A stretch of 35,639 nucleotides of DNA from Halomarina rubra (GTDB lineage: Archaea; Halobacteriota; Halobacteria; Halobacteriales; Haloarculaceae), in contig NZ_JALXFV010000005.1 in NCBI RefSeq assembly GCF_023699475.1, forward strand, positions 257,821-293,459. The letters run 5' to 3'. This document shows positions 652 to 9,677 of the stretch, piece after piece. Each line of letters begins with the position of its first letter. Positions within the stretch are counted from its first letter, which is position 1. Under the pieces are notes generated by a model, which saw only the letters and a program-made list of their open reading frames with translations, searched no databases and had not been told where the DNA came from. Position numbers and translations under genes: made by a program.

Positions 652-1725
652 TCAGAGGGTGCGTGCGACCGATTCGAGCACCGCGACCGAGCGGTCGAAC
701 TCGGTCAGCGAGAGACGCTCGTCGGGCGCGTGGTCGAGGGCGGAGTCGCCGGGACCGTACGTCGCCATCGGGCAGTCCCACGCCTCCGCGTAGAGGTTGA
801 CGTCGGCCGTCCCGGTCTTCCGCAGGAGGCGGGGGTCGCCGTCGGCCTCCCGGATGGCGACCCGGAACGCGCGGGCCACCTCGGTCCGGGGGCTGGTCAT
901 CACGGGTGGGATGGCGTCGTTCCAGTGGACCGTCCCGCCGTTCAGTTCGCGTTCGGCGAGTTCGCGGACGTCCTCGGTAGTCAGGCTGGGCGGGACGCGG
1001 AACTGGACGTCCATCGTCGCCTCGACGGCCAACCCGTCCTCGGTGGTGCCGCCCTCGACGGTCGTGGGTTTGGGTGTCACGCGCTCGAAGACGGGCGACC
1101 ACTCCTCCTCGGCGTCGGGGGCGAACGCGCTCTCGACGCGCGACCACCACTGGAGCGCGTCCTGAATCGCGTTGTTCTCCGGCCGAGAGGTGTGACCCGA
1201 CTCGCTGGTCGCGACGTAGCGTCCCGCGACCAGTCCGCGATAGCCGAGCGTGATGCCGTCCCAGCCCGAGGGTTCGCCGTTGACGAGCGCGTCGGGAGCC
1301 TCCCGGTCGGTGACGAGGTGACGCGCGCCCCGCGAGTCGGTCTCCTCGCCGACGACGCCGACGAACGAGACGCCCGTGTTCACCGCGGCGACGGCCATCG
1401 CGACGAGCGGCCCCGTCGCGTCGACGCTCCCGCGGCCCCACAGTTCGGGGCCGTCCTCGCCCGCTTCGATACGAACCGGAATCTCGCCGGGGACGGTGTC
1501 GACGTGCGACGTGAGCAACAGCGAGTCGTCGGCGGGTGCGCGGACGTTACCCACCTCGTCGAGCCACGCCTCGCGGCCGTGCTCTTCGAAGAACGCGACG
1601 AGCAGTTCACACGCCGCGCGCTCCTCGCTCGACACCGACGGCGTCGCGACCATCGACTGCAACAGGTCGCGGGCCTCTTCGTCGGAGACGGGAGCACTCG
1701 TCGCGCACTCCGAGGAGGCGTTCAT
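652..1725 (-). CDS. argE: [LysW]-ornithine/lysine hydrolase (M20 family)
   Basis: Zinc/cobalt M20-type amidohydrolase expected to release ornithine from its LysW carrier (called ArgE or LysK). 357 residues. Metal-ligand motifs are clear: SHVDTVPG (H74, D76), GSVDATG (D102) and GEETDSRG (E127 general base, E128). The open frame extends further upstream, but the ATG at 1725 overlaps the argD stop by 4 bases and starts just before the M20 fold, so it is the natural start. Which substrate is used is inferred from the neighbours: every other gene here belongs to arginine synthesis and no lysine-specific gene is present. Confidence 0.93.
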   Translation of the reverse strand: MNASSECATSAPVSDEEARDLLQSMVATPSVSSEERAACELLVAFFEEHGREAWLDEVGNVRAPADDSLLLTSHVDTVPGEIPVRIEAGEDGPELWGRGSVDATGPLVAMAVAAVNTGVSFVGVVGEETDSRGARHLVTDREAPDALVNGEPSGWDGITLGYRGLVAGRYVATSESGHTSRPENNAIQDALQWWSRVESAFAPDAEEEWSPVFERVTPKPTTVEGGTTEDGLAVEATMDVQFRVPPSLTTEDVRELAERELNGGTVHWNDAIPPVMTSPRTEVARAFRVAIREADGDPRLLRKTGTADVNLYAEAWDCPMATYGPGDSALDHAPDERLSLTEFDRSVAVLESVARTL

Positions 1726-2849
1726 CCCACCACCTCGGCGAGCGCGTCGACGACCTGCGCACAGTGCTCGTCGTCGACGACGAGCGGCGGGAGCAAGCGG
1801 AGGACCGACCGGCCCGCCGGGAGCGCGAGCACTCGGTGGTTCATCGCCAGCGTGGGGAGCAGACGGTTCGCACCGCGCTTGACCTCGACACCGACCATCA
1901 GCCCCTCGCCGCGGACCTCCCGCACGTCCTCGCCGATTGCGGCCTGCAACTCGGTCAGCAGGTGGTCGCCCGTCGTCGCGGCGTGACCGGGCAGATCCTC
2001 CTCGACCAGTACGTCCAGCGTGGCGTTGGCCGCGGCGGCGACGACCGGCCCACCCGAGAACGTCGAGCCGTGGGGGCCGGCGTCCTCGGCGACCCACTCC
2101 CGACAGAGCGTCGCCCCCAGCGGAAGCCCGCTGGCGAGTCCCTTCGCAGTCGTCAGGATGTCGGGCGTCACGCCGTGGTGTTCGCACGCCCAGAACGCGC
2201 CGGTGCGACCGAGACCGGTCTGAATCTCGTCGAGTATCATCGCCGCGCCGTGCTCGTCACACGCCTCGCGGACCGACTGGAGGTACCCCGCAGGGGCGGG
2301 GTTGATACCGCCCTCGCCCTGCATCGGTTCGAGGACGACGCCGGCCGTCTCGTCGTCGACGGCCTCGGCCATCGCGGCGGCGTCGCCGTACTCGACGAAC
2401 TCGACGCCGCCGGCGAGCGGTTCGAACGGCTCGCGGTACTCGTTCTTCCACGTCGTCGCCAGCGCGCCCATCGTCCGCCCGTGGAACCCGCGGGTCGTCG
2501 CGACGATCTTCGAGCGACCGGTCGCACTCCGGGCGAACTTCAGCGCGGCCTCGTTGGCCTCGGTCCCGGAGTTACAGAGCCAGACGTGCTCGCAGTCGCC
2601 GGGACCGAGCGAGCCGAGGCGGTCGTAGAGGCCGTCGCGCACGTCGACGGGGTACGACCCCTGGACGTACAGCAACTCGCCGGCCTGCTGCTGGACCGCC
2701 TCGACGACGTCGGGGTGACAGTGCCCGACGGGTGTGACGGCGTACGACGCGCCGAAGTCGAGGAACTCCGTCCCCGAGTCGTCGTAGAGGTGGACGCCCT
2801 CGCCGCGCTCGATGCGCAGCGGTTTCTCCGAGAAGACGAAGCCGCTCAC
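1722..2849 (-). CDS. argD: [LysW]-ornithine/lysine aminotransferase (class III, PLP)
   Basis: Class III pyridoxal-phosphate aminotransferase that aminates the LysW-bound glutamate semialdehyde with glutamate as donor. 375 residues. Visible marks are the NSGTEANEAALK phosphate-binding loop (from about residue 93), GFHGRTMGAL, D207 in ILDEIQTG and the PLP lysine K236 in TTAKGLASG. The start is GTG at 2849, overlapping the argB stop as GTGA; the same frame runs upstream through argB but only as its shadow. Equivalent to ArgD/LysJ of the carrier-protein pathway. The role in arginine rather than lysine synthesis is inferred from the operon. Confidence 0.94.
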   Translation of the reverse strand: MSGFVFSEKPLRIERGEGVHLYDDSGTEFLDFGASYAVTPVGHCHPDVVEAVQQQAGELLYVQGSYPVDVRDGLYDRLGSLGPGDCEHVWLCNSGTEANEAALKFARSATGRSKIVATTRGFHGRTMGALATTWKNEYREPFEPLAGGVEFVEYGDAAAMAEAVDDETAGVVLEPMQGEGGINPAPAGYLQSVREACDEHGAAMILDEIQTGLGRTGAFWACEHHGVTPDILTTAKGLASGLPLGATLCREWVAEDAGPHGSTFSGGPVVAAAANATLDVLVEEDLPGHAATTGDHLLTELQAAIGEDVREVRGEGLMVGVEVKRGANRLLPTLAMNHRVLALPAGRSVLRLLPPLVVDDEHCAQVVDALAEVVG

Positions 2850-3763
2850 TGCTCTGCCTCCGCGGTCTCGGTGTCGCGCTCCTCGGACAGCGCACCGGGC
2901 AGGACCGTCGTTCCGGTACCCTCCAGCGCGGCGCTGACGGGAGCGTCGGCGTTCGCGTCGCCGATGGTGACGCTCGTCGCGCCGCCCTCCAGTGCCTCGG
3001 TCGCGGCCATCACCTTCCGGGTCATGAACCCCTCGGCGGCGTCGGTGAGGGACTCGTACTCGGTGGGGGTGTCGACCACGTCGATGACCGAATCGGGGTC
3101 GTCGAGGTCCGCGAGGACGCCGGGGACGTCGGTCAACAGGACGAGGTCGGCGTCGAGCGCACCCGCGACGGCGGCCGCCGCGCGGTCGGCGTCGGAGTTG
3201 ACCGCGAGCCACTGTTCGGAATCCTTCGCGAGCATCGGCACGGTGACGACGGGCGTGTAGCCCCCCGCGAGCAGGGTGTCGAGCAGGTCCGAGTCGACCT
3301 GCTTCACCGTGCCCGAGTGGTCGCCACGGCGAATCTTCTGCTTGTCGTCCTCGACGACGCGAACGGCGGACTTCCGGGGACCCTTGAGCAGACCACCGTC
3401 CACGCCCGAGAGACCGACCGCGTTCACGCCGGCGTTCTGGAGGCCGACGACGAGGTCGGTGTTCAGCTTCCCGGGCAGCACCATCGAGAACACCTCCATG
3501 GTGCGCTCGTCGGTGAACCGGCCGACGACGCCCGAGGGTGTCTCGACGTACTCCGGGTCCTCGCCGAGCGATTCCAGCGTGTCGTCGACCGCGGTCGAGC
3601 CACCGTGGACGACGACGACCTGCTCGCCGTCGCCAGAACGCGCTGCGTTCTGGCTGCCTGCCGAGGTTCCCTCGGCACTGGAGTCGACGAGCGAGGCGAC
3701 GTCGGCGAGTGCGCCTGCTGGGTCGACGGCGCGTGCGCCGCCGATTTTTACCACAGTCACCAT
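2846..3763 (-). CDS. argB: [LysW]-glutamate/aminoadipate kinase with an in-frame palindromic insertion
   Basis: Amino-acid kinase family enzyme that phosphorylates the side-chain carboxylate of LysW-bound glutamate (ArgB/LysZ). 305 residues. It opens with the kinase strand VVKIGGA, has the VVVVHGG glycine loop near residue 49, and ends with the ATP-site region around LLTDVPG and SDADRAAAAVAG. Residues about 28-44 form an extra low-complexity loop (AEGTSAGSQN and flanks) not expected in this family; it is coded by two tandem palindromes at 3633-3653 and 3659-3677. The ATG at 3763 is immediately next to the argC stop. Function should be tolerant because the insert lies in a loop before the second strand, but this is inference. 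Confidence 0.93.
   Translation of the reverse strand: MVTVVKIGGARAVDPAGALADVASLVDSSAEGTSAGSQNAARSGDGEQVVVVHGGSTAVDDTLESLGEDPEYVETPSGVVGRFTDERTMEVFSMVLPGKLNTDLVVGLQNAGVNAVGLSGVDGGLLKGPRKSAVRVVEDDKQKIRRGDHSGTVKQVDSDLLDTLLAGGYTPVVTVPMLAKDSEQWLAVNSDADRAAAAVAGALDADLVLLTDVPGVLADLDDPDSVIDVVDTPTEYESLTDAAEGFMTRKVMAATEALEGGATSVTIGDANADAPVSAALEGTGTTVLPGALSEERDTETAEAEQ
3633..3678. repeat. Palindromic in-frame repeat, copy 1 (in argB)
   Basis: Two tandem perfect palindromes: CCAGAACGC / GCGTTCTGG with a 3-base loop (3633-3653) and TGCCGAGG / CCTCGGCA with a 3-base loop (3659-3677). The part 3646-3678 matches 10705-10737 at 30 of 33 bases. It codes for an extra loop in ArgB (about residues 28-44). Confidence 0.8.
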
Positions 3764-4795
3764 CTACGGTGCCCCCACGGGGTGGAGTCCCTGGAACTCC
3801 AGACCGGCCGTCTCCTCGATACCGAGTGCGAGGTTTGCGGCGTGGACCGCCTGGCCCGCCGAGCCCTTCGTCACGTTGTCGATGGCCGAGAAGACGACGA
3901 CGCGGCCGTTTCTCGGGTCCACCTCGAAGCCGACCTCGGCGTAGTTCGTGCCAGCCACCGATTTCGGTTCGGGATAGCGGTAGACGCCGCCCCCACCGGA
4001 GACGAGGCGGACGAACGGTTCGTCCTCGTAGCGTTCGCGGAACGCCCCCCACAAATCGCCCGTGGTGACGCGCTCGTCGGGGAAGACGTGACACGTCGCG
4101 CTCGCACCGCGCACCATATCGACGGCGTGGACGGTGAACGCGACGCGCCCGACGAACTGCTCGATCTCCGCTTCGTGACGGTGGCCGGTCGGCGCGTAGG
4201 GCCGCACCACGCCGGAGCGTTCGGCGTGTGAGGAGGCCGCACCGCCGCCCGCGCCACCCTCCGAGGAGCCGACCTTCACGTCGACGACGGGCCGCTGTGA
4301 CCCGAGCATGTCCGCGTCGGCCAGCGGGAGCAGTCCGAGCATCGTCGCGGTGGCGTTACAGCCACCCGAAGCGATGAGGTCCGCACCGGCCAGGTCCTCG
4401 CGGTTGAGTTCGGGCAACGCGTACGTCGCCTCGGCGAGCAACTCGGGGCGCTCGTGGCCGTCGTACCACTCGTCGTACTGTTCGGCGGTGTCGAGGCGGA
4501 AGTCCGCCGAGAGGTCGACGACGGTGTCCGCGACGTCCCGGAACTCGTCGATACGACCCATCGAGACGCCGTGAGGCGTCGCGGCGAACAGCACGTCCAC
4601 CGATTCGAGGTCGGCGGGGTCGCTGAACCGCAGGTCCAGCCCCCGCAGGTTGGGGTGGGCGTGGCCGACGGTCTTGCGCGTCGCCGACCTGCTGGTAGCC
4701 TGTGCGAGTTCGAACTCGGGGTGGCCCGCGAGCAGACGGAGGAGTTCACCCCCCGCGAACCCGCTCGCGCCGACGACGCTGGCGGTGAGGGTCAT
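3764..4795 (-). CDS. argC: [LysW]-glutamyl/aminoadipyl phosphate reductase
   Basis: NADPH-dependent semialdehyde dehydrogenase (ArgC/LysY) that reduces the LysW-bound acyl phosphate. 343 residues. The Rossmann start GASGFAGGELLR (residues 9-20) is followed by catalytic C146 in SGGCNATA, and GHRHEAEIEQ near residue 219. The ATG at 4795 is chosen because the Rossmann strand TASVVGA begins right after it; the frame extends upstream but only into an Arg-rich shadow. It lies 13 bases after the argX stop and directly abuts argB, so it is probably co-transcribed and translationally coupled. Confidence 0.94.
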   Translation of the reverse strand: MTLTASVVGASGFAGGELLRLLAGHPEFELAQATSRSATRKTVGHAHPNLRGLDLRFSDPADLESVDVLFAATPHGVSMGRIDEFRDVADTVVDLSADFRLDTAEQYDEWYDGHERPELLAEATYALPELNREDLAGADLIASGGCNATATMLGLLPLADADMLGSQRPVVDVKVGSSEGGAGGGAASSHAERSGVVRPYAPTGHRHEAEIEQFVGRVAFTVHAVDMVRGASATCHVFPDERVTTGDLWGAFRERYEDEPFVRLVSGGGGVYRYPEPKSVAGTNYAEVGFEVDPRNGRVVVFSAIDNVTKGSAGQAVHAANLALGIEETAGLEFQGLHPVGAP

Positions 4796-4808
4796 CCGTT
4801 CCACCCCA

Positions 4809-5693
4809 TCACGTCGTCGCCTCCACGGTCTGTTCGTCGGTGGCCGTCTCCTCGACACGGCTCTCCAGCCAGTCGACGACCGCGGCGGGGACGTCCACGT
4901 CGACGGCGTCGTCGAGCGCCTTGAACTCGACCGTGTGGTTGACCTCGTGAACGGTGTAGCCGTCGCCAGTCTCCATCAGGTCCACACCGAGCAGACCACC
5001 GCCGACGGCCTCGCTCGCTCGGGCGACCAACTCGGCCACCTCGTCGTCGACCTCGAAGGGTTCCGCGCTCGCGCCCTTCGCGGCGTTGGTGAGCCAGTGG
5101 TCCGACGAGCGGGTCATCCCCGCGATGGGTTCGCCGTCGACGGCGACGACGCGGATGTCGCGACCGGGTTTCTCGACGAACTCCTGGACGTAGAACACCT
5201 TGTGCTCGTAGTGGCCGAGCGTCGCCTTGTGTTCGAGAATCGCCTCGGCGGCGCTCTTCGAGTCGAGTTTCGCCATCAGACGACCCCACGACCCGACGAC
5301 GGGTTTGAGCACGCAGGGGTAGCCGAAGCTCTCGATGGCGTCCATCGCCGCGTCGGTGGTGAACGCCACCGTCGTCTCGGGCGTCGGGACGCCCGCCGCC
5401 GACAGCGCCAGACTCGTCTCGGCCTTGTCCGCACACAGCGCGGCGGTCTCGGCGCTGTTGACCACGGGGACGCCGTAGTGGTCGAGGAAGCGCGTGGCGT
5501 ACTTGCTGCGACTCGTCGCCAGACAGCGGTCGACGACGACGTCGCAGTCGGTCAGCCCTTCTGGCGCGTTCGACAGCGTGAACTGCTGGTCGCGCACGTC
5601 GACCTTCGTCACCTCGTGGCCGCGCTCGCGCAGCTCCGAGAGCAGCAGTTTCTCGTCGCGACGGATGCGCGAGTAGAGGACGCCGACGTTCAC
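4809..5693 (-). CDS. argX: Glutamate/aminoadipate-[LysW] ligase (ATP-grasp)
   Basis: ATP-grasp ligase that joins the alpha-amino group of glutamate to the C-terminal Glu of LysW, the committing step of carrier-bound ornithine synthesis. 294 residues, starting with GTG at 5693. Seen: an N-terminal RimK/LysX-like domain (VGVLYSRIRRDEKLLL), ATP-grasp strand GYPCVLKPVVGSWGR, SDHWLTNAAKG, and the metal-binding end VHEVNHTVEFK. The LysX and ArgX enzymes are close relatives; I call ArgX because the neighbours make arginine. Whether it also uses aminoadipate cannot be told here. The GTG overlaps the stop of a 41-codon ORF. Confidence 0.92.
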   Translation of the reverse strand: MNVGVLYSRIRRDEKLLLSELRERGHEVTKVDVRDQQFTLSNAPEGLTDCDVVVDRCLATSRSKYATRFLDHYGVPVVNSAETAALCADKAETSLALSAAGVPTPETTVAFTTDAAMDAIESFGYPCVLKPVVGSWGRLMAKLDSKSAAEAILEHKATLGHYEHKVFYVQEFVEKPGRDIRVVAVDGEPIAGMTRSSDHWLTNAAKGASAEPFEVDDEVAELVARASEAVGGGLLGVDLMETGDGYTVHEVNHTVEFKALDDAVDVDVPAAVVDWLESRVEETATDEQTVEATT

Positions 5694-6194: not shown

Positions 6195-7661
6195 TCAGAC
6201 ATACGCCGTCACCTCCTCGCGGAGGTCGTCGTCGGCCGCGTCGAGCGACTCGGCGAGACAGTCGAGGATCGCCTCGTCGCCCGAGCAGTCCTCGGTCGCC
6301 TCGGCGAGGTGCGCGCGCACCGTCTCGGGGGCCGGCCCGCCGAGCGAGTCGCGCGCCGCGACGTTCGAGACGGGGTCCAGCGCCGTCTGGACGGCGTCCT
6401 CCGAGACGTACGTCGAGAGCGGTTCGTCGAGCACCTCCTCGGCGGCCGCCGCGACGAGGTCGTAACTGGGCGTTCCACCCTCTTCGGCGGTCTCGGCGGC
6501 GAGCGCGAGCACCTCGTGGGCGGTGCGGAACGGAATCCCCGACGCGGCGAGCAGGTCGGCGACCCCGGTGGCCGTCGAGAACCCCTCGCCAGCGGCGGCT
6601 TCGAGTTTCTCCTCGGGCCAGTCGGCCGTGGCGACCGCCCCCGCGGCGACCTCCGTCGCTTCGGTGACGGCGTCGACGCTCGCCCAGACGTGGGGCGTCG
6701 CGCGCTGGAGGTCGCGGTTGTACGCACGAGGGAGGCCCTTCAGCGTCGTCAACAGACCGTTGAGTCCCGCGCTGGCGTCGCCCGCCGTCGCGCGGACGAG
6801 TTCCAGCGTGTCCGGGTTGACCTTCTGGGGCATTATCGAGGAGGTCGAGGAGTAGTCGTCCGCGAGGTCGACGAGGCCCTTGTTCGCGAAGACGACGAGG
6901 TCCTCGGCGAGTCCCGAGAGGTGCGTCGCCAGCGTCGCGAGCGCGGACGCCGTCTCGACGAGGAAGTCACGCGTCGCGCTGGCGTCCGTCGCGTTATCCA
7001 GCACGCCGTCGAACCCGAGCAACTCGGCGACCCGCTCGCGGTCGACGTCGAACGTCGTCCCGGCGAACGCCGCCGCGCCGAGCGGCGACTGGTTGACCCG
7101 TGCGTAGGCGTCGAACAGACGCGCCGTGTCGCGAGCGAGCGCCTGCTGGTACGAACACGCCCAGTGTGCCACGGTCGTGGGCTGGGCTGGCTGGAGGTGG
7201 GTGAACCCCGGCATCACCGTCTCGGTGTGCTCGGTCGCCACCGTCAGGAGCGACTCGCGGGCGAGCAGCGTCGCCTCGATTGCGTCGAGCAGGTCCTCGC
7301 GCAGGCGATAGCGGATGCACGCCGCGACCTCGTCGTTGCGCGAACGGGCGGTGTGCATCTTCCCGCCGACCGGCCCGACCTGGTCGATGACCGACGTCTC
7401 GATGGCGGCGTGGATGTCCTCGCCGGCGGGGAGGCCGGCGTGTTCCTCGACCTCCACCACGTCGAGCGCCTGGAGGATGGTCGCCGCCTCGTCGTCGCTC
7501 ACCACGTCCTGCTCGGCGAGCATGACGACGTGGGCGCGGTCGACCGCGAGGTCGGCCTCGAAGATGCGCTCGTCGGCGTCGAGCGACGAGAGGAACGACC
7601 GGGCGGGGCCGCCGCTGAAGCGTTCGCGGCGGACCACGTCCGAGTCGTCCAGCCCCGTCAT
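6195..7661 (-). CDS. argH: Argininosuccinate lyase
   Basis: Last step of arginine synthesis: splits argininosuccinate to arginine and fumarate. About 488 residues, fumarase/aspartase superfamily. The superfamily signature appears as SSIMPQKVNPD, with HTARSRNDEV and TVMPGFTHLQPAQP, both typical of ArgH. I choose ATG 7661, one base after the argG stop, which gives a short N-terminus before VVRRERFSGGPARSF. ATG 7679 or GTG 7673 would also work but overlap argG by 17 or 11 bases. Co-transcription with argG is very likely. Confidence 0.95.
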   Translation of the reverse strand: MTGLDDSDVVRRERFSGGPARSFLSSLDADERIFEADLAVDRAHVVMLAEQDVVSDDEAATILQALDVVEVEEHAGLPAGEDIHAAIETSVIDQVGPVGGKMHTARSRNDEVAACIRYRLREDLLDAIEATLLARESLLTVATEHTETVMPGFTHLQPAQPTTVAHWACSYQQALARDTARLFDAYARVNQSPLGAAAFAGTTFDVDRERVAELLGFDGVLDNATDASATRDFLVETASALATLATHLSGLAEDLVVFANKGLVDLADDYSSTSSIMPQKVNPDTLELVRATAGDASAGLNGLLTTLKGLPRAYNRDLQRATPHVWASVDAVTEATEVAAGAVATADWPEEKLEAAAGEGFSTATGVADLLAASGIPFRTAHEVLALAAETAEEGGTPSYDLVAAAAEEVLDEPLSTYVSEDAVQTALDPVSNVAARDSLGGPAPETVRAHLAEATEDCSGDEAILDCLAESLDAADDDLREEVTAYV

Positions 7662-7662
7662 C

Positions 7663-8895
7663 TCACTGTTCACTGCCACCGTCGGGGAGCGCCTCCGTCG
7701 CCTGCTTGGTCTGCTCTTTCGCGCCGTTCGCCAGGCGGGTCTGGAACCCGTGGTACTTCGCGACGCCCGTCGCGTCCTCCTGGGCGATGCCGTCGACGGT
7801 CTCGGTGTCGAACGAGGCAGCCGACTCGGAGTACGTGGCGAATTCGCTGTCGCGACCGACCGGGCGACACTGCCCGCCCTCGAACTTCAGGGTGACCGTG
7901 CCCGTCACGCGCTCCTGCGTCGTGGCGATGAACCCCTCGAGCGCGTCGACGAGCGGAGCCATCACGAGGCCCTCGTAGGCCTTCTGGGACCACTGGGCGT
8001 CGACCTGCTGTTTGAACTGGCGCTCTTCTGCAGTCAAAACGAGACCCTCCAGCGCCTCGTGTGCGGTGAGCAGGGCGGTCGCCGCCGGGTGCTCGTAGTT
8101 CTCGCGGACCTTCAGGCCGAGCATGCGGTCTTCCATCATGTCCGTACGGCCGACGCCGTGCTCGCCCGCGAGGTCGTTGAGCGTCTCGACGAGCGTGACG
8201 GCGTCCATCTGCTCGCCCTCCAGAGCGACGGGATAGCCCTCCTCGAACGTTATCTCGACGAGTTCCGTCTCCGCTTCGCCGGGCGTGTCCGTCCACTCGT
8301 AGATGTCCTCGGGCGGGACGTAGTTCGGGTCCTCCAGCGCGTCGCCCTCGACGGAGCGACTCCAGAGGTTCGTGTCGATGGACCAGTCGCCGCCGTTCCC
8401 GCCGTCGACCGGCAGGTCGTGTTCGGCGGCGTACTCCACCTCCCAGTCGCGGGTCAGTCCGAGTTCGCGGATGGGGGCGATGACCTCCAGGTCGGAGGTG
8501 CGCCAGACCGCCTCGAAGCGCAACTGGTCGTTGCCCTTCCCGGTACAGCCGTGGGCGACGGCGTCACAGCCCTCGTCGACGGCGACGTCGAGGATGGCCT
8601 GGGCGATGACGGGACGCGCGAGCGCGGTTCCGAGCGGGTAGCCCTGGTAGTCGGCGTTGGCGCGGACGGCGTCGAGACAGAGGTCGGCGAACTCGGCTTT
8701 GGCGTCGACGACGTGGGTCTCGACGCCGAGTGCGTCGGCGGTCTCGTCGGCCTCGTCGAACTCCTCGGCGGGTTGGCCGACGTCGACGGTGACGCCGACG
8801 ACTTCGTCGTAGCCGTACTCCTCTTTCAACAGCGGAACGCAGACGGTCGTGTCGAGCCCACCCGAGAAGGCGAGCGCGACTTTGCTTGTGGACAT
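7663..8895 (-). CDS. argG: Argininosuccinate synthase
   Basis: Joins citrulline and aspartate with ATP to give argininosuccinate. 410 residues, the normal length. The PP-loop AFSGGLDTTV is at residues 8-17, followed by VDVGQPAEEF, HGCTGKGNDQ and the citrulline/aspartate binding region. The ATG at 8895 starts immediately before the first strand of the PP-loop domain. Upstream, 81 bases separate the start from a 27-codon leaderless ORF with clustered Arg codons and a hairpin, a possible arginine-responsive leader (8977-9091). First gene of the argGH part of the arginine cluster. Confidence 0.96.
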   Translation of the reverse strand: MSTSKVALAFSGGLDTTVCVPLLKEEYGYDEVVGVTVDVGQPAEEFDEADETADALGVETHVVDAKAEFADLCLDAVRANADYQGYPLGTALARPVIAQAILDVAVDEGCDAVAHGCTGKGNDQLRFEAVWRTSDLEVIAPIRELGLTRDWEVEYAAEHDLPVDGGNGGDWSIDTNLWSRSVEGDALEDPNYVPPEDIYEWTDTPGEAETELVEITFEEGYPVALEGEQMDAVTLVETLNDLAGEHGVGRTDMMEDRMLGLKVRENYEHPAATALLTAHEALEGLVLTAEERQFKQQVDAQWSQKAYEGLVMAPLVDALEGFIATTQERVTGTVTLKFEGGQCRPVGRDSEFATYSESAASFDTETVDGIAQEDATGVAKYHGFQTRLANGAKEQTKQATEALPDGGSEQ

Positions 8896-8976
8896 TTGGG
8901 GTCGAGTGCGATGGGTGCGCCGAAACCTCGGCGCTGGACGGTTGGAAACTGGGCGACGGTCGAGGGGAGAATGTAG

Positions 8977-9060
8977 TTACTGGGCCAGGAGGCCCGGTCG
9001 CACTCGTCGCGGAAGGGCACCGCTCGCGGCCTGCGTGCCGGTGGAGCGGTGAGTCGTCAT
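8977..9060 (-). CDS. 27-codon leader ORF upstream of argG, possible leader peptide
   Basis: An ATG-to-TAA ORF whose ATG (9060) lies about 28 bases after the centre of a strong TATA box, so the predicted transcript starts at or within a base of this ATG. It has five Arg codons; three CGA codons lie in a four-codon block (CGA CGA GTG CGA) about eight codons before the stop. The last codons overlap a hairpin (8982-8995). The stop is 81 bases before the argG ATG. Position, Arg codons and hairpin resemble a bacterial amino-acid attenuator. I know of no described case for this gene; function is inference. Confidence 0.4.
   Translation of the reverse strand: MTTHRSTGTQAASGALPRRVRPGLLAQ
8982..8995 (-). 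promoter_or_regulatory. Hairpin at the end of the argG leader ORF
   Basis: In the RNA sense GGGCC-TCCT-GGCCC, a 5-pair all-GC stem with a four-base loop, lying in the last codons of the 27-codon leader ORF and just downstream of its CGA cluster. A ribosome reaching the leader stop would cover it; one stalled at the CGA codons would leave it free to fold. Confidence 0.4.
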
Positions 9061-9081
9061 TACCAGACCGAAACGACGCGA

Positions 9082-9091
9082 GCGTAATAAA
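9082..9091 (-). promoter_or_regulatory. TATA box for the argG leader transcript
   Basis: Minus-strand TTTATTACGC, the best TATA-like box upstream of argG. Its core is centred near 9088, 28 bases from the ATG of the leader ORF and about 190 bases from argG itself. Confidence 0.65.
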
Positions 9092-9151
9092 CCTGTCTCG
9101 GGCGGCAATCGCTGCGCCGTCGTGTGAACACCCCACACTGCCGTGCGCGGC

Positions 9152-9160
9152 GTTTTTGTA
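9152..9160 (+). promoter_or_regulatory. TATA-like box for the 2'-5' RNA ligase-like gene
   Basis: GTTTTTGTA centred about 27 bases before the GTG at 9183, consistent with a leaderless transcript and supporting that start codon. Confidence 0.55.
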
Positions 9161-9182
9161 CGCACGTCGACCGAGAGAGGAC

Positions 9183-9677
9183 GTGTACAGTCTGAACGCC
9201 CGTGTTCCGCGGTCGGTCCGGACGGTCGTCGAGGCCCTCCAGCGCGACCTCCCCGACGGCTGTCGCCCGCGCGACCGACTCACGCTCGTCGTCAAGCGCG
9301 TCGGCGAGGACGAGACGGACCACCGCGAACTGGCCGAGCGCGCCCGTACGGCGCTGGCTGGCGAACCGGCCTGCAACGCTCGACTCGGGCGTCTCGGCGC
9401 GTTCGACGCCGACGGCACGCCCGTCGTCCACCTGCGCGTCGAGAGCCCCGGTCTCCGCGCGCTCCACCACCGACTCTGTCGGGCGTTCGACCCCGTCCCG
9501 GCCATCGAGGGCGAGGCGTACGTCCCCCACGTCACGCTCGGGCGTGGTGGCGACTGGAGCGCCGTCGAGGCGTTGTGTGAGCGCGACGTCGAGCCAGTCG
9601 AGTGGACCGTCTCGGACCTGCTGCTGTGGTCGAACCGGTGGCGCGAACCGGTCGCGTCGCTCGCGCTGGGACGATAG
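9183..9677 (+). CDS. 2'-5' RNA ligase / cyclic phosphodiesterase-like protein (2H superfamily)
   Basis: 164 residues. The 2H fold uses two H-x-T/S motifs to act on 2',5' or cyclic phosphodiester bonds in RNA. The second motif is intact as HVTLGRG near residue 117. At the expected first motif the sequence reads RLTLVVKR, with Arg in place of the first catalytic His, so activity is uncertain. The GTG at 9183 is chosen because a TATA-like box lies 27 bases upstream and the protein then starts at the first strand (YSLNARVP). The frame is open further upstream but only across the argG control region. Family assigned from motif spacing and length; substrate unknown. Confidence 0.72.
   Translation: MYSLNARVPRSVRTVVEALQRDLPDGCRPRDRLTLVVKRVGEDETDHRELAERARTALAGEPACNARLGRLGAFDADGTPVVHLRVESPGLRALHHRLCRAFDPVPAIEGEAYVPHVTLGRGGDWSAVEALCERDVEPVEWTVSDLLLWSNRWREPVASLALGR

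Follow-up and report, generated by a model that had tools for sequence, protein, structure and literature searches.

An arginine-codon leader ORF and hairpin conserved upstream of argG in Halobacteria: a likely cis-acting attenuator of the arginine operon

Does the short arginine-codon frame in front of argG in Halomarina rubra regulate the arginine operon, and by what means? The question was raised by a window of 35,639 nt (contig NZ_JALXFV010000005.1, positions 257,821 to 293,459), by which we mean the whole stretch of DNA analysed. The genes concerned are the following.

1722-5693, minus strand: further arg genes, namely a LysX/ArgX-type ligase, an argC-type reductase, an argB-type kinase and an argD-type aminotransferase (Pfam; order from ORFs).
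6195-7679, minus strand: argH, argininosuccinate lyase (Pfam PF00206 and PF14698).
7663-8895, minus strand: argG, argininosuccinate synthase, the proposed regulated gene (Pfam PF00764 and PF20979; ATG at 8895).

The window argG shares 95% identity with its Halomarina oriensis counterpart. Further downstream of the arg run lies an ORF which we take to be an argE-like deacylase, named by sequence reading only. A divergent 2'-5' RNA ligase-like gene (9149-9677, plus strand, Pfam) lies upstream of the leader; its GTG start at 9183 has a TATA-like stretch of its own, TTTTTGTA, about 30 nt upstream.

The leader region contains the following features, in the direction of transcription.

9085-9091, minus strand: TATA box TTTATTA of promoter P1, 31 nt 5' of the leader ATG (sequence).
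8977-9060, minus strand: leader ORF of 27 codons plus TAA, MTTHRSTGTQAASGALPRRVRPGLLAQ (sequence; in-phase homologous ORFs in nearly all haloarchaeal argG upstream regions).
9018-9051, minus strand: SL1, a hairpin in the 5' half of the leader ORF (-21.2 kcal/mol, z -2.65).
8998-9009, minus strand: arginine control codons CGA CGA GTG CGA, codons 18-21 (sequence).
8982-8995, minus strand: SL2, hairpin GGGCC-TCCT-GGCCC, the proposed terminator (-12.1 kcal/mol in context, z -2.25; covariation).
8964-8981, minus strand: G-poor tract AGTAACTACATTCTCCCC after SL2, with one G; in this lineage the stop codon falls within it, and termination is proposed to occur here.
8917-8934, minus strand: lineage-specific spacer hairpin GCGCCGA-GGTT-TCGGCGC before argG (-13.7 kcal/mol, z -3.47).
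8903-8911, minus strand: TCGCACTCG, a perfect complement of the control-codon stretch CGAGTGCGA at 9006-8998 (from the fold).

The first-pass annotation had claimed that a strong TATA box directs a transcript from the ATG of the 27-codon ORF and not from argG. The spacing and the ORF, with its ATG at 9060, were confirmed. Because the TATA box lies 31 nt before this ATG, the transcript is predicted to begin at the ATG or within a few nucleotides of it; this start, and the leaderless translation start that goes with it, remain predictions from the sequence without transcript data. The annotation had also counted five Arg codons, but only four are present (R5, R18, R19 and R21). Its claim of three CGA in a four-codon block held, as did that of a GC hairpin at the end of the ORF, and its coordinates were right; SL1 had been missed. 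In the window, SL2 starts 3 nt past the last control codon, and the TAA starts 3 nt past SL2. The folding of the whole window leader gave a z of -2.81.

To see how far this arrangement is conserved, 80 haloarchaeal argG loci were taken from named genomes and another 8 from the genus group of the window; 84 upstream regions were used after duplicates and one truncated locus were dropped. A strict detector was applied, which called for a TATA box, an ATG-initiated ORF of 15-75 codons, a GC hairpin at the stop codon, and at least three Arg codons in the seven codons preceding that hairpin. It was positive in 56 of the 84 argG upstream regions, compared to 1 of 252 dinucleotide shuffles. A near-identical detector also accepted 56/84 argG regions, compared to 0/47 trp/his upstream regions and 0/1655 genes of the same genome, each at least 150 aa long and taken from 2.4 Mb of that genome. 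When relaxed to two Arg codons, the detector accepted 67/84, 1/47 and 3/1655, respectively. Under looser curation 78 of the 84 argG loci were accepted, 76 of them with at least two Arg codons at the hairpin, and several loci outside the curated 78 also have the element on inspection by eye. These counts are not independent events, since the loci are related by descent.

Of the 78 curated loci, 67 have their stop codon within SL2 and 4 more have it no further than 6 nt behind the hairpin. The TATA-to-ATG spacing is 28-32 nt in 76, as in leaderless transcripts. The leader ORF varies from 22 to 57 codons and the spacer from SL2 to argG from 71 to 181 nt. Positive loci cover many genera of the Haloferacales, Natrialbales and Halobacteriales; Haloferax volcanii also has a closely related version, and divergent members carry the element as well (L183/L184, MFPP...SRRRAGSR followed by a stop, translated by eye). 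The check that the first-pass annotation had proposed, conservation in relatives, was thereby carried out with a positive outcome: the frame, the Arg codons, the hairpin and the spacing of the promoter are all kept throughout the class Halobacteria. Outside this class, 20 argG upstream regions were inspected and none had such a leader, and no second copy of the CGA and hairpin pattern was found in the own genome, where argG is its sole occurrence. The element is likely to be ancestral to the class. An 88% DNA match on contig C10 (L002) does not lie before an arg gene and was taken as chance.

Some lineages carry variants of the leader. In four loci of Natronorubrum and Salinadaptatus (L050, L059, L061 and L063), the Arg run and the hairpin are kept and the stop codon at the hairpin is lost, so that the frame continues through the hairpin for about 20 codons more. 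Halocatena-type leaders (L018 and L037) are extended by tandem hairpin units of the GTCGGGC...CCCGACGAC type, which preserve the reading frame in L018.

Whether the frame itself is read was addressed with an ATG for which the only criterion was how far it lay from the best TATA match, so that the Arg codons had no influence on the choice. The CGN register before the hairpin was in frame with this ATG in 74 of 75 loci, compared to an expectation of one third; in the sole out-of-frame locus, L017, the hairpin had been mis-picked. The rest of the leader peptide showed no sign of selection, with 64, 61 and 59 differences at codon positions 1, 2 and 3 among 17 independent close pairs. A kept frame with kept Arg codons and a drifting peptide is what one would expect if the leader matters by being decoded and not through its product.

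The control codons are strongly biased. The eight codons before the hairpin in the 78 loci contain 227 CGA, 62 CGG, 8 CGC and 3 CGT codons. CGA therefore makes up 76% of the control Arg codons (227/300), compared to 15.5% of Arg codons genome-wide, and it accounts for 32 of 181 Arg codons elsewhere in the leader. A single tRNA-Arg(UCG) was found in the 2.4 Mb of genome scanned. Bacterial leaders likewise have biased control codons, which have been explained by selective charging of isoacceptors (PMC1183508). Alternatively, the third-position A may serve to keep this stretch out of GC pairing.

SL2 is under selection as a structure. Its stem occurs as GGGCC/GGCCC, GGCCC/GGGCC, GGGGC/GCCCC, GGGGT/ACCCC, GGGCT/AGCCC and GGCCA/TGGCC. 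In a gap-free set of 15 distinct sequences, 100% of cells were paired and 7 were changed on both sides. None of 500 shuffles reached a covariation score as high, and sliding the partner destroyed the signal. Since most of the 3' arm is non-coding, codon choice does not explain the pairing. Covariation and the conserved position at the stop codon together indicate selection for this hairpin at the leader end. SL1 is also general and more stable than shuffles (mean z -1.76 over 76 loci). The spacer hairpin GCGCCGA-GGTT-TCGGCGC is present in L003 and L085 and absent from the H. halobia type loci, and stands outside the conserved core.

Behind SL2 lies a G-poor tract of C, A and T. Its G content across loci is 1.9% in the first 17 nt, compared to 22% in the next 40 nt. 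It contains no T run, and no U-tract was found behind SL2. No general antiterminator was found either, in a scan limited to the pairing of control codons or SL2 arm with the downstream spacer. The mean z of such pairing was -0.94 across loci, with significance in few; the H. halobia type loci L007, L087 and L089 reached -3.5 to -3.9. Rfam covariance models, including T-box and leader families, gave no match in the window or in the argG and pheS loci tested. The pairing of CGAGTGCGA with TCGCACTCG in the window was rejected as a general switch, since it is lost in L085, and it was not significant against shuffled spacers (z -0.78); it may still be a switch specific to this lineage.

A near-invariant spacer element, CCGCCCACCGTCGGGTTCYGGGGCGG-N-CACCCGACA, precedes argG in nine loci (L032, L058, L064, L071, L073, L074, L077, L079 and L160) and is absent from other clades. 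Its loop GTCGGGT complements ACCCGAC just before argG, and a pseudoknot-like fold is conceivable.

The promoters of argG follow two arrangements. In 30 loci, including the window, no TATA box precedes argG itself; P1 therefore appears to be the promoter there, which gives argG a leader of about 160-250 nt. In 48 loci of the Haloferacales and Natrialbales, a second TATA box lies about 29 nt before the argG ATG. It would allow a leaderless argG mRNA beside read-through from P1, as inferred from the sequence, and P1 thus cannot be the only source of argG mRNA in those loci. In Haloferax volcanii, 7 of 16 genes with a uORF reportedly have such double start sites (PMC4983044). Where the second promoter is missing, the 30 nt that immediately precede argG are rich in A and C and poor in G and T, which suggests that this stretch is open.

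Operator-like motifs, GGTTAGCANNCGCTCT and CCTATAGGCATCTCT, immediately precede the second argG promoter, at a distance of about 60 nt from the gene. They are conserved in L009, L013, L020, L028 and other loci of the Haloferacales and Natrialbales.

Promoter spacing, reading frame, control codons, hairpin and single location are thus shown by comparison. We consider it likely that they form a cis-acting, ribosome-mediated transcription attenuator of the arg operon that responds to arginine; translation, stalling, termination and the arginine response are inferred. The leaderless P1 transcript would be translated from its first codons. With charged tRNA-Arg present, the ribosome would pass the CGA codons, reach the stop codon in or beside SL2, and leave. 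SL2 would then form, and together with the untranslated G-poor tract it would stop RNA polymerase, either directly or via the archaeal factor FttA/aCPSF1. With charged tRNA-Arg scarce, the ribosome would wait on the CGA codons with its 3' edge reaching into the 5' arm of SL2. A ribosome with a late CGA codon in its A site should extend about 12-15 nt further, so the 5' arm of SL2 would be covered. SL2 would be blocked by the waiting ribosome, and transcription would proceed into argG and argH.

Several published observations bear on this proposal. RNA polymerase and ribosomal proteins co-purify in Hfx. volcanii, for which transcription-translation coupling has been reported (PMC8576121), and archaeal polarity has been attributed to FttA (PMC12548453). 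When a natural hairpin was inserted into an Hfx. volcanii reporter, 59% of transcripts were terminated, compared to 95% with a T stretch (PMC7237163).

The bacterial attenuator layout that the first-pass annotation had seen here held only in part. Its proposal of a translated Arg leader with a hairpin that acts in the manner of a bacterial amino-acid attenuator is supported. The classical layout is not, as the hairpin follows immediately on the control codons and mostly has the stop codon in its loop, no U-tract is present, and the scan of control codons and SL2 arm against the spacer gave no general antiterminator pairing. Regulation by arginine or charged tRNA-Arg, which it had inferred, remains an inference. 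Against attenuation, the efficient terminators that PMC7237163 describes in haloarchaea have a T-stretch, which SL2 lacks. Further points against it are that no general antiterminator was found in the spacer scan, the second TATA box in 48 loci, the loss of the stop codon at the hairpin in four loci, and the absence of argG from the uORFs listed for Hfx. volcanii (PMC4983044, Table 2), in a start-site study for which cells were grown in complex medium.

Translational control is the rival that survives best, and we regard it as unlikely. It holds that leader and SL2 act on argG translation, by reinitiation or start masking, and not on transcript elongation. In its favor, CGAGTGCGA of the window can pair with TCGCACTCG just before the argG ATG, L003 retains pairing of this type through a matching change on both sides, and pairing with the spacer is significant in the H. 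halobia type loci L007, L087 and L089. However, the pairing is lost in L085 and is not significant in most loci, including the window. The spacers of 71-181 nt compare poorly with termination-reinitiation in Hfx. volcanii, which fades beyond 30-40 nt (PMC12548453). In addition, the stretch before argG appears open in loci without the second promoter, and a leaderless argG mRNA from the second promoter would not contain the leader.

A second rival takes the ORF for a small gene in its own right, encoding an Arg-rich peptide that acts in trans. The ORF does have its own promoter and its own stop codon with a hairpin, and a second argG promoter exists in 48 loci. However, differences show no third-position excess (64/61/59), the length varies from 22 to 57 codons, the ORF always adjoins argG, and a peptide would not need the strong CGA bias. 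We consider this reading highly improbable.

Equally little weight is given to the reading of CGA repeat and hairpin as a DNA or RNA binding site for a regulator, with the open frame incidental. CGACGACGACCGGG is a recognisable motif in many loci, and operator-like elements lie near the second promoter. However, the frame with the leaderless ATG is kept in 74/75 loci despite interruptions by CCG, TTC or GTG, CGA alternates with CGG, and the stop codon is placed in the hairpin.

Chance, which the first-pass annotation had left possible, has in its favor that haloarchaeal DNA commonly contains short ORFs and GC hairpins. It is refuted by the conservation results to the point that almost no room is left for it, given 56/84 argG regions against 1/252 shuffles, 0/47 trp/his and 0/1655 same-genome controls.

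Leaders were also looked for at other amino-acid genes. Of 32 haloarchaeal pheS loci, 25 have a short ORF whose ATG lies about 30 nt behind a TATA box and in which Phe residues cluster towards the end, typically as GFGFFFA(A) before the stop codon. This count refers to loci and not to species, as L214 and L356 are identical in sequence. The pheS leader of the own genome, MASDPRRAGVVTDQSRVARFGFFFAA, lies 148 nt before pheS, and it ranked top in a scan of 2.4 Mb for residue runs that used neither homology nor gene names. A 26-aa uORF is listed at pheS in the start-site table of Hfx. volcanii (PMC4983044, Table 2). The amino acid thus matches the gene twice (Arg at argG, Phe at pheS), which supports amino-acid sensing as a theme. 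No leader with a Trp or His run was found in the upstream regions of trpC, hisG and trpD.

The pheS leader loci include L211 (own genome, contig C10), L346, L347, L349, L350 and L352-L362. After the leader follows a conserved region, stop-GAGCGGCGGACTCC-(hairpin)-GACGAAACCGCTC, with complementary ends and no Rfam match in the loci tested. Separately, in the own genome (contig C10, plus strand, about 441638), a TATA-like box and an ORF, MFDTPENLRALRPSRRPLRRPLRRPNRGDGVCAS, lie upstream of an aspartokinase-like gene, with the ORF ending where that gene starts.

A bolder reading extends the proposal to a class-wide archaeal attenuation, in which leaderless leaders would sense arginine at the arg operon and phenylalanine at pheS. 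Transcription would end at a hairpin and G-poor tract without U-tract or antiterminator, by a design distinct from the bacterial one. We lean towards this reading by a narrow margin.

In textbooks, attenuation through translation of a leader is a bacterial device, and it depends on a ribosome that follows RNA polymerase closely. If the bolder reading is true, an ancient, class-wide archaeal version would make transcription-translation coupling directly testable with a natural and genetically tractable reporter (Haloferax). The first-pass annotation knew of no such device in haloarchaea; likewise, the literature search turned up neither an arginine leader nor ribosome-mediated attenuation in Archaea. 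Subscription papers and preprints were mostly outside the search, and an earlier report is not excluded.

Among known systems, the uORFs of Hfx. volcanii (PMC4983044, Table 2) are similar in that they are leaders in long 5'-UTRs, some with a second start at the main gene. They differ in that argG is not in the table and attenuation was not proposed there. The present reading, if true, would give a function to haloarchaeal leaderless uORFs. The fungal arginine attenuator peptide (the arg-2/CPA1 uORF), which needs a conserved sequence and stalls at high arginine, is also a uORF on an arginine gene. In contrast, the haloarchaeal peptide is not conserved, and its stalling would be expected at low arginine. 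In bacteria, the pheST leader of the pheM type is a Phe-rich leader before pheS. The haloarchaeal pheS leader is likewise Phe-rich; it occurs in another lineage, and its post-stop structure has no Rfam match.

The closest likeness is to the bacterial trp, his, leu, thr and ilv attenuators. They share a short leader ORF with codons for the amino acid of the operon, a hairpin near the leader end upstream of a biosynthetic operon, and biased control codons, which are CGA in haloarchaea and CUA in leu (PMC1183508). However, the haloarchaeal leader ORF is leaderless and driven by a TATA promoter, its control codons abut the proposed terminator with the stop codon in the loop, it has no U-tract, and it showed no general antiterminator pairing with the spacer. 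If the proposal is true, the attenuation principle was either invented independently or has spread widely outside Bacteria.
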